Assembly (NCBI GenBank): GCA_028223395.1
Contig: JAOIUG010000001.1
Span: 1 to 64,000, forward strand
Reading direction: 5' to 3'
Source: Shewanella sp.
Lineage (GTDB): Bacteria; Pseudomonadota; Gammaproteobacteria; Enterobacterales; Shewanellaceae
DNA length: 64,000 nucleotides
Each line of letters starts with the position of its first letter. The stretch's first letter is position 1. Below, piece by piece: positions 56,850 to 59,378 of the stretch. The notes beneath the pieces are model-generated. The model was not told the origin of the DNA and ran no database searches. It saw only the letters and a list, made by a program, of their open reading frames with translations. Position numbers and translations under genes: made by a program.

Positions 56850-57463
56850 TAACCCGCTGACCATATTCACTTAGTAAAGCGTACCTCTTGATGACGCTAA
56901 AATAGTAAAGCTCACTTAAAATAAGGTTGGATTGGGATCTTGTCAAAGATAATTTCTGACCGGCCCCCTATGTCAGAATTGCTATCGATGTTGAACAACC
57001 TCTCTTTTTACTCAAGGTCAATGAGTGATGCACGGTGATCGTTTTCAATTTTTGATGAGCCAAAATATAAAATTCTTTTTCAGTTACCATTAATACTCTT
57101 AGGAATGAAAAACTTTACAGTACCGTACAGTAAAAGTACAGCAGTTGTATCAGTAACACAAAAAGATGGTATAACCATTTATATAAACAAGCACAATGTA
57201 TCGCCGCCTTAATCATCGTGTTATTTTCCCATTCGCTGGCAGTGAGAATTATTCATCAACTACATCGAAAATTTGGATCAGATCTGTCGTTGTTAAAAAA
57301 TGATGCGATGACTTAAGCTTTGACAGTAGATCCAAGAATATCAGTGATACCGAATATGCTAAAAACGATAGTAGAAAATGATAGCGATAAACAAACGCGC
57401 ACACGCAAATGTTGCAAACTATTTTAAACCGTTTTAACCTTGATCACATTCATGCTGGCTTTT
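56850..57463. other. Intergenic region downstream of rluA and of the recombinase
   Basis: About 610 bases. Contains a hairpin (CTGAC/GTCAG near 56955-56980), a TACAGTA direct-repeat cluster at 57116-57141, and one ATGGTATAACCAT palindrome at 57166. A plus-strand open frame of about 50 codons without a start codon (ending near 57315) has one hydrophobic stretch and might be a gene remnant. Confidence 0.45.
57166..57178. repeat. Palindrome copy 1, ATGGT-ATA-ACCAT
   Basis: 13-bp palindrome beyond the 3' end of the recombinase gene. It shares the 16-base context GATGGTATAACCATTT with copy 2. Confidence 0.65.
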
Positions 57464-58507
57464 TTAATCATTTGGTTTTAAATAGTGATTCAATGAACGC
57501 GGATCGGTATGGCCTGTACGTGCCATAATGTAGAGGTGATCTTTTTCATTTTCATGTAGTTGTGTTACACAACCACTGCGTAAACTGTGCGCGCCGTAAT
57601 ATTGAGGATCCAGCCCCGCTTTTTGACAGTAACGTTTGATCAGCTGGTAAATATCATCCCCACGGAGAAACCCTCTACCTGTTTGTGCGCTGGTTTGTTG
57701 ATAATCCCTGATTGTTTTGCCGTCCCTGCTGATCGAACGGAATAAGTGACCATCAGTCAATTTAGTCAACTCCAACCATTCTTTAACAGCTTGATAAGCC
57801 GATAACCATTCTGCTTTAGGCAATACCTTCCATTCTCTTTGTCCTTGCTGATTACTTTTAGAGTAGGGCAGTCTTATTTTCAGTTTATCTCTTAAAAAGC
57901 TAACATGACTGACTTTCATATTCGCCAATTCAGAACGTCTAAAACCTCCTTGAAACCCTAATTGAATAATCGCTTTATCCCTTATGCGGCTGAGCGGTTG
58001 CGATCGTTTATCGATCTCTTGGATCAACATTTCAAGTTCATCATACATAATCGGTTGTTGATCGTAATCGCTGACACTGCGATATTGATTACGCATTAAT
58101 CCGCGCATCACTCTGACGACCAAAGGGTGTTCAGTCGGGGAAGGGTATTGGGCTTGAATGTGATAGAAACGGATCGCAGCTAATCGGGTATTAATCGTTT
58201 GAGTCGATAATTGCTGCCCATTACGCGCTTGATATATTTCTTTTTGATGACCGAGAAAAGCAATCACCGTACGGGGATCTGCAGGCAAAGCACTCAAATG
58301 ATGGTTGTCACAATAACGGCTAAAAATGCTGAACGACCCCCGATAAACCCGTCGGGTATTGTCAGAAATTTCGTAACGAGTTTCTTCTGCTGCTCGTTCG
58401 AAATCATTGAGTATTGATAAGGGTAATTGCTGCTCTTGATAGAAGCTTTGATCAGGCTGTAACTCGGTATTATTTGGCTTGGTAATTGGGTTAATTTTAT
58501 TATTCAT
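57464..58507 (-). CDS. Tyrosine site-specific recombinase (solitary integrase)
   Basis: About 347 aa from ATG 58507 (GAGAG upstream). N-terminal SAM-like core-binding domain about 25-130 (TRRVYRGSFSIFSRYC, INTRLAAIRFYH), then the catalytic domain with the first Arg in GFQGGFRRSELANMK near 190, HSLRSGCVTQL near 310, the second His in ARTGHTDPRSLNHYL near 333 and the nucleophile Tyr close to the end. All R-H-R-H-Y positions are visible, so it should be active. It is not IntI-like, as no extra IntI helix motif is seen, and it is not next to the cassette array. No phage, plasmid or transposon partner is nearby. Flanked by two copies of a 13-bp palindrome and preceded by a perfect inverted repeat. 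Confidence 0.9.
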   Translation of the reverse strand: MNNKINPITKPNNTELQPDQSFYQEQQLPLSILNDFERAAEETRYEISDNTRRVYRGSFSIFSRYCDNHHLSALPADPRTVIAFLGHQKEIYQARNGQQLSTQTINTRLAAIRFYHIQAQYPSPTEHPLVVRVMRGLMRNQYRSVSDYDQQPIMYDELEMLIQEIDKRSQPLSRIRDKAIIQLGFQGGFRRSELANMKVSHVSFLRDKLKIRLPYSKSNQQGQREWKVLPKAEWLSAYQAVKEWLELTKLTDGHLFRSISRDGKTIRDYQQTSAQTGRGFLRGDDIYQLIKRYCQKAGLDPQYYGAHSLRSGCVTQLHENEKDHLYIMARTGHTDPRSLNHYLKPND

Positions 58508-58563
58508 TACTCTCAAATGCCTCGATCAGCCCAAATTTAGAAGCCTTATTGTAGCTATTATGC

Positions 58564-58609
58564 ACATTCACTACCAGTGATAATCGTCATTATCACTGGT
58601 AGTGAATGT
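58564..58609. repeat. Perfect 21-bp inverted repeat with 4-bp spacer
   Basis: Arms 58564-58584 and 58589-58609 are exact complements around CGTC. Each arm contains the smaller imperfect palindrome CACTACCAGTG / CACTGGTAGTG. It lies 57 bp upstream of the recombinase start. It may be a recombinase binding/crossover site, an operator, or a stem in the leader RNA. Confidence 0.75.
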
Positions 58610-58737
58610 TATTTAAACAAAGCAGCCTTTAATGCGGTTTATTTATCCAAATAATGCCTTTAGTTGCCATTGTCAGCGTTATTATTTTATCCGATTAATC
58701 TAGATAATCTGTCGTGAGAGAGTGAATATAGATAATG

Positions 58738-58750
58738 ATGGTATAACCAT
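58738..58750. repeat. Palindrome copy 2, ATGGT-ATA-ACCAT
   Basis: Between the divergent recombinase and RHH-like genes; identical to copy 1, including flanking bases G and TT. Confidence 0.65.
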
Positions 58751-58836
58751 TTTAAAGGTGACTGATGTGATTAAATGCGTAAAATGAGTGTGAAAGCTTG
58801 CTTCAATGAGGTAGCTTGACTAAAACACCCATTAAA

Positions 58837-58849
58837 ATGGTGCAACCAT
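58837..58849. promoter_or_regulatory. Palindrome copy 3, ATGGT-GCA-ACCAT
   Basis: Same half-sites as copies 1 and 2 with a different 3-bp centre, 25 bp before the RHH-like gene start, a typical place for an autoregulatory operator. Confidence 0.6.
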
Positions 58850-58874
58850 AAATTACAAATTAAAAGAACACGTG

Positions 58875-59378
58875 ATGAATTACACAAAGCAGCAATGGCG
58901 ATATCATGGCGTAACGCCAGTAAAAGGCAGAAAACTATTACTACTGCAAGCAGATGAGTTGCTTGTGGCGATCCCGCTGATGTATCGCATTATTTTACAG
59001 AACAAAAAAGATCATCGGCTCGAATGGTTTAATTATGCTGAAAGCAAAAAGGATCAAGAATTAAAATTTATTACTTTATCAACGCAGCTTTCATTAATGG
59101 CAAAAAAACATAAAGATAAGCAAGACGACAGTGAGGCACTGCAGTATTTAAATGTATTGCTCAATGATCACTTTAGCGATTATGGCTGGCGTATGATCCG
59201 AAAAGAATTAGCACAAATAAAAAAACGACGTAAAAAGTCACATATAGAATTAAGTAATGATCTCATTTATCGATTAAAACGTTTGATGTCTTTAAAGCAA
59301 CTCGACAGTTTTGATCAAACCATTGACTACTTATTAAGTGAAAATGAAGATAATTGTCTCGAAAAATCTAAGTTGTGA
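58875..59378 (+). CDS. Ribbon-helix-helix-like DNA-binding protein (distantly MatP-like)
   Basis: About 167 aa. Unrecognised N-terminal helical domain (YTKQQWRYHGVTPVKGRKLLLLQADELL). The C-terminal part KKSHIELSNDLIYRLKRLMSLKQLDSFDQTIDYLL (about 125-160) has the beta-strand, helix, helix pattern of RHH proteins and resembles in layout the end of MatP (RKKSIDLE...LSETI). A basic stretch KKRRKKSH precedes it. RHH dimers normally bind short palindromes, and one lies just upstream of this gene. ATG 58875 or GTG 58872 are both possible. Divergent from the recombinase; a functional link is inference. Confidence 0.6.
   Translation: MNYTKQQWRYHGVTPVKGRKLLLLQADELLVAIPLMYRIILQNKKDHRLEWFNYAESKKDQELKFITLSTQLSLMAKKHKDKQDDSEALQYLNVLLNDHFSDYGWRMIRKELAQIKKRRKKSHIELSNDLIYRLKRLMSLKQLDSFDQTIDYLLSENEDNCLEKSKL

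Follow-up and report, generated by a model that had tools for sequence, protein, structure and literature searches.

Introduction

Two divergent genes in a Shewanella genome, one for a tyrosine recombinase (TyrR) and the other for a putative ribbon-helix-helix (RHH)-like protein, raise the question of where the recombinase acts and what its neighbour contributes. A first-pass annotation of the window (the whole 64,000-nucleotide stretch analysed, from a 2.05-Mb assembly in 146 contigs that is 53% complete) had noted three palindromes of the form ATGGT-N3-ACCAT around the genes, and had offered two readings of them. Either the genes form a two-gene module, in which the RHH-like protein represses both and shapes the recombination site, or they constitute a minimal mobile element.

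Here, we compare the locus with other Shewanella chromosomes and plasmids. The interpretation that we arrive at, and that we hold to be moderately probable, is that of a resident chromosomal resolution module of the Cre/lox type, with an RHH-like repressor or co-factor, which would be auxiliary to XerCD/dif.

Results and Discussion

The features of the locus are collected in Table 1. The three palindromes are exact and lie where the first-pass annotation had placed them, two in the region between the divergent genes and one beyond the end of TyrR. The two copies of identical sequence share 16 bp in all, GATGGTATAACCATTT, and flank TyrR in the same orientation at a spacing of 1572 bp, as the annotation had described (1.57 kb).

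Table 1. Features of the TyrR/RHH-like locus, in window coordinates.
Feature	Position	Strand	Remarks
Palindrome ATGGTATAACCAT	57166–57178		Exact ATGGT-N3-ACCAT match
TyrR, Cre/Xer-like tyrosine recombinase, 347 aa	57464–58507	−	ATG at 58507; start in the ORF list, TTG at 58516
Candidate recombination site, 46-bp perfect inverted repeat	58564–58609		Upstream of TyrR
Conserved core TACCAGTGATAA-TCGTCA-TTATCACTGGTA, 30 bp	58572–58601		Nearly invariant
Palindrome ATGGTATAACCAT, operator-like	58738–58750		Exact match; class of site conserved
Palindrome ATGGTGCAACCAT, operator-like	58837–58849		Exact match; ca 25 bp 5′ of the RHH-like start codon
RHH-like DNA-binding protein (putative), 167 aa	58875–59378	+	ATG at 58875; in-frame GTG at 58872

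The pattern is not common in the genome at large: the whole assembly contains five exact copies, three of them at this locus, compared to seven copies of a reversed control pattern. It is also conserved near homologues. In 41 Shewanella loci, the window itself included, the sequence upstream of the RHH gene and between the two genes amounts to 30.9 kb and holds 74 exact copies, distributed over 38 of the loci, while simulation gives an expectation of 0.025 copies. With three of the five assembly copies here and this excess in the 41 loci, the clustering is non-random.

The minimal-mobile-element reading, according to which TyrR would excise itself via the 16-bp repeats, is based on the two identical sites that flank the gene in direct orientation. 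The site beyond the recombinase end does exist, ca 290 bp past the stop codon, but of the 41 loci (window counted) 7 have such a palindrome in the 300 bp that follow TyrR and 34 do not, and judging from these loci the downstream palindrome is lineage-specific. The central triplet varies among homologous loci, the repeat is in all likelihood one instance of an operator, and TyrR is normally single-copy in a recurrent neighbourhood near dif. In one genome (G026, locus L077), furthermore, an RHH homologue is preceded at 20 bp by the palindrome and TyrR is not nearby. Self-excision is thus very unlikely, and the 16-bp repeats are poor candidates for recombination sites, a role that a different and far better conserved palindrome, discussed below, probably fills.

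The other proposal, that of a two-gene module whose palindrome belongs to the RHH-like protein, fares much better. The arrangement is found genus-wide: besides the window, 34 loci have a close TyrR divergently upstream of the RHH-like gene, and in a few others an insertion or contig break lies between the two. The palindrome follows the RHH-like protein even where TyrR is not nearby, and also on plasmids (L085 and pSx1), where it lies near RHH homologues including a diverged one. Its flanks nearly always carry A or T at 3–5 bases outside. RHH regulators characteristically act on a short palindrome upstream of the gene that encodes them, and conservation suggests that this gene, too, has such an operator. 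The palindrome is therefore most likely the operator of the RHH-like protein, and not a recombination site or the end of an element. Since the palindromes sit in the regulatory region common to both genes, repression of one or both by this protein is plausible.

The protein itself has no family in Pfam, NCBIfam or PHROGs. Homologues were found in 46 Shewanella genomes, about half of those sampled, and marginally in two genomes of another genus (146 genomes searched). Its C-terminus contains a conserved block, KKRxKKSHIELSNDLI..LK..M, which faintly resembles a ribbon-helix-helix, and there is a weak profile match to the RHH protein 2kel (E=0.038). A structure predicted from four sequences reached a pLDDT of 52, too poor for a fold search.

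We now come to the 46-bp inverted repeat, which stands out most among the repeats of the locus and was absent from the first-pass annotation. It occurs once in the window and never in shuffled sequences. Its 30-bp core adjoins every close TyrR orthologue that we examined, with rare changes, while the outer arm bases differ among genomes and are mostly still complementary. Among 118 Shewanella genomes, the core is present in all 55 that have a close TyrR (ca 60% identity or more) and in none of the remaining 63, three of which have a best TyrR of 37–46% identity and 60 of which have none. A single copy is found in 51 of the 55 core-bearing genomes, and no copies were found in IMG/VR. More diverged TyrRs are accompanied by different cores that keep the ATAA-N6-TTAT plan.

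The core can be described as two 12-bp arms separated by an asymmetric spacer of 6 bp, or equally well as a lox-like 13-8-13 arrangement. Cre/lox-type sites are characteristically recombinase-linked palindromes whose two inverted arms enclose a short and asymmetric spacer, and the core conforms to this plan. Because the core is linked to TyrR, has a nearly fixed spacer and is mostly single-copy, it is likely the site at which TyrR recombines.

It is necessary to consider also that the inverted repeat might be a transcription terminator or an RNA hairpin, as a consensus scan scores it as terminator-like. The repeat is, however, located upstream of two divergent genes and has no match in Rfam, and its asymmetric spacer is nearly invariant, whereas a hairpin needs pairing only. 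In addition, exchanged segments in other genomes end at these same half-sites (see below). We regard this possibility as very improbable. A promoter scan of the locus gave results no better than for shuffled sequences.

TyrR matches the Pfam Phage_integrase family (E=1.3e-18), and its nearest solved structures are those of Cre and XerD. Cre/lox-type tyrosine recombinases require the catalytic set R-K-H-R-(H/W)-Y, and TyrR has it complete as R190, K217, H307, R310, H333 and Y342, all invariant in four relatives. Orthologues with 60–79% identity occur in 55 of the 118 Shewanella genomes, and 107 further genera sampled from the same order gave no match at E<=1e-45. An integron identity was considered as well, but TyrR does not qualify as an IntI-type integrase: it scores 12.6 bits with the NCBIfam integron integrase model, whose cut-off is 265.

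One could imagine that the RHH-like protein is an autorepressor only, and that TyrR is an idle relic of an integrated plasmid. That the operator adjoins the RHH gene, that the genes have plasmid relatives and that their presence is patchy would all agree with this. The dN/dS ratio in ten pairs is, however, 0.05–0.15 for TyrR (with dS up to 0.77), and it is 0.07–0.25 for the RHH-like gene. As these values are far below 1, the sequences indicate that both genes are under purifying selection, and for TyrR the invariant core and the catalytic residues that are intact throughout the genus point in the same direction. An idle TyrR is accordingly improbable.

Next, we consider the position of the module on the chromosome. 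All 21 genomes of one set have a single canonical dif, as do 19 of 20 genomes of a second, and XerC and XerD are presumably present as well, to judge from this conservation. In all 28 genomes that have the core and dif on one contig, the two are separated by 9–164 kb (median 52 kb). The core is thus terminus-proximal, like the sites of Xer/dif dimer resolution, but it is not part of a sole main system, since the canonical dif is there too. The larger of these distances go beyond the zone of roughly 30 kb to which dif function is confined in E. coli (PMC2731167). Furthermore, half of the genus is without the module and nearly all genomes have a canonical dif, and the module is therefore dispensable for ordinary dimer resolution.

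Two further observations on the position call for caution. The RHH gene is always oriented toward dif (orientations read by hand), and the TyrR tree requires ca 5 changes of side, at least two of them on supported branches. Inversions symmetric about the terminus would preserve such a polarity, and it is consequently not independent evidence of selection. In 11 of the 12 module genomes that retain it, the neighbouring gene RluA is found no more than 10 kb from the module, and yet it is ca 1–1.4 Mb from dif in four genomes without the module and in genome G036. Inherited gene order thus accounts for part of the position.

The terminus location also suggests a comparison with MatP/matS. The matS site has a 5-3-5 plan, just as the 13-bp palindrome here, and the partner is RHH-like, so that a terminus organiser of this kind might be envisaged. 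A profile comparison with E. coli MatP, however, returned a probability of 0.9%, and exact palindromes away from the locus are, among the sites listed for 20 complete genomes, scattered, and similarly so in genomes without the module. With no detectable homology and no Ter-wide enrichment among the sites listed, MatP/matS identity is rejected, and we give such a function hardly any credence. The Pfam MatP family was not found in the 53%-complete assembly of the window.

In four genomes (G018, G057, G066 and G148, all draft assemblies) the situation is more elaborate. Each of them contains 8–22 sites with the core arms and differing spacers, and a relaxed motif applied to the loci examined finds 93 sites compared to one in simulated sequence. 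The module is split in three of the four by genes for secreted proteins, chitin-related by inspection. At loci L107, L108, L109 and L110, 6–9 kb of secreted-protein genes (chitinase-like or chitin-binding-like by eye) lie between the core and the RHH gene. The core spacer at these loci, which belong to the same four genomes, is TTGTCA.

Half-sites identical to the core arms bound segments exchanged among G018, G057 and G148. A 1.6-kb segment shared by G057 (L128:1457-3051) and G018 (L133:4813-6408) is 94% identical between differing flanks, and ends with TTATCA(C/T)TGGTAG on one side and GATAAGC on the other, while a 1.78-kb segment common to G148, G057 and G018 is found in three contexts. Among the genes in the segments are those for a pesticin-domain protein, a KAP NTPase, and a protein with a peptidoglycan-binding domain, the last followed by a gene for a small protein. 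One cassette was searched for in the plasmid collection, with no match. These breakpoints point to site-specific exchange, although recombination between repeats through other means may also account for them.

Several other sites of this kind were noted. Further segments bounded by half-sites are present at loci L118, L122 and L131, and at L136, L143 and L144. G066 has tandem sites 28 bp apart, and on its contig C96 a 19.8-kb stretch lies between two sites (L111:3123-3148 and L112:3403-3428) that agree in spacer and orientation; the stretch holds an ORF of 3484 aa, peptide synthetase-like by appearance. An extra site in G018 (L134:4765-4790) lies inside an apparent transcription terminator, with a GC-rich extension and a T-run.

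On the basis of these four genomes, we tentatively raise the possibility that gene cassettes in some Shewanella are mobilised by TyrR and the core, in a system distinct from both integrons and Xer, for which the core near the terminus would be the ancestral site. An example of a cassette might, just as tentatively, be the pesticin-domain protein with its small downstream partner, exchanged between genomic positions. Another reading would make the locus an acquisition platform, where TyrR captures circular DNA or cassettes with matching half-sites, the core is the resident attachment site and the RHH-like protein exerts restraint. The abundance of same-arm sites and the several segments swapped exactly between half-sites speak for it. 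Against this, cassette-like sites are lacking in 51 of the 55 core-bearing genomes, where the core occurs just once; the cassette spacers differ from that of the core, a mismatch to which a Cre-type enzyme would be ill suited; and the core of the window carries no insertion. We consider the acquisition platform rather unlikely.

Returning to the resolution module, and starting from the conservation of its parts, the association of TyrR with the core and of the RHH-like gene with the operator, the purifying selection and the proximity to the terminus, we infer the following mechanism. TyrR would pair two copies of the core and swap strands within the spacer. The RHH-like protein would bind the palindromes between the core and the genes, very likely repressing its own gene in this way and probably also TyrR, and could possibly organise the DNA around the core as well. 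For plasmid versions with RHH, TyrR, core and operator, multimer resolution would be the natural task, and the chromosomal module may derive from them. On the chromosome, it would assist XerCD/dif by parting sister copies of the terminus region that have become joined or duplicated; this role is suggested by the location near an intact canonical dif. It is the weakest step, and taken alone we find it somewhat doubtful.

It is unusual for a genome to have, in addition to dif, another conserved system for site-specific recombination with a putative DNA-binding partner of its own. The module would represent a naturally occurring example of a Cre/lox-type system, probably of plasmid type, kept on a chromosome, and a new enzyme/site pair. 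If the observation in the four genomes holds, it also shows a route from such a module to a cassette-shuffling system. The module is directly testable in S. oneidensis MR-1. This strain is almost certainly our genome G061, which carries the module at positions 2485031–2487162 of contig C1 and whose dif position agrees with the literature (PMC2731167). In the literature outside subscription journals, no description of the chromosomal module or of the cassettes was found.

Comparison with Known Systems

The closest parallels are found on Shewanella plasmids, where RHH and TyrR homologues are adjacent or overlapping and co-directional, with palindromic cores of their own. Near their cores, pSx1 and pPN3F2_1 also carry the palindromes ATGGTGGTACCAT and GTGGTGGCACCAC. 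A gene of pPN3F2_1 (L156:1358-2218) ca 4 kb from the RHH-TyrR pair is annotated as 'DNA replication terminus site-binding protein'. Plasmid 1 of Shewanella sp. ANA-3 has the core TGTCCGATAA-TTACAG-TTATCGGACA ca 3.7 kb upstream of the RHH gene, and its recombinase is 25% identical to TyrR. Judging by the site sequence, this enzyme is apparently SCre and its core SloxP. The core plan is the same as in the ANA-3 plasmid, but the TyrR core has other arms and another spacer and is chromosomal, near dif. Also, the RHH homologue of ANA-3 is directly upstream of the recombinase, whereas the genes here are divergent with the core between them. A 34-bp site is reported as the substrate of SCre, which comes from Shewanella sp. 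plasmid p1 (PMC4957104). Like SCre/SloxP and other systems of the Cre/lox type, the locus has a lone tyrosine recombinase and, as its candidate site, a short palindrome whose spacer is asymmetric. We regard the module as a variant of these systems that resides on the chromosome and has an RHH-like partner.

The gene arrangement is reminiscent of TnpS/TnpT-rst of Tn4651, in which the recombinase and its helper are divergent and the resolution site lies between them (PMC7157771), just as the candidate site does here. TyrR is 25% identical to TnpS, but the RHH-like partner is unrelated to TnpT (BLASTP E=0.084 over 35 residues), and no transposon surrounds the locus.

Single-recombinase Xer systems offer another comparison. 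XerL/dif, for example, consists of a single recombinase and one dif-like palindrome near the terminus (PMC9765430), and the linkage of one recombinase to such a palindrome is common to XerS/difSL, XerH/difH, XerL/dif and the present module. The centre of the core, ATAA-N6-TTAT, is also that of dif. Unlike in those systems, a canonical XerCD-type dif coexists with the core, and there is a putative additional DNA-binding partner. Finally, the segments of the four genomes resemble the XerCD-dependent dif/pdif modules of Acinetobacter, in which genes lie between recombination sites, sometimes in arrays (PMC12907356). The Shewanella segments are likewise bounded by sites and sometimes arrayed, but their half-sites match the TyrR core and not dif.
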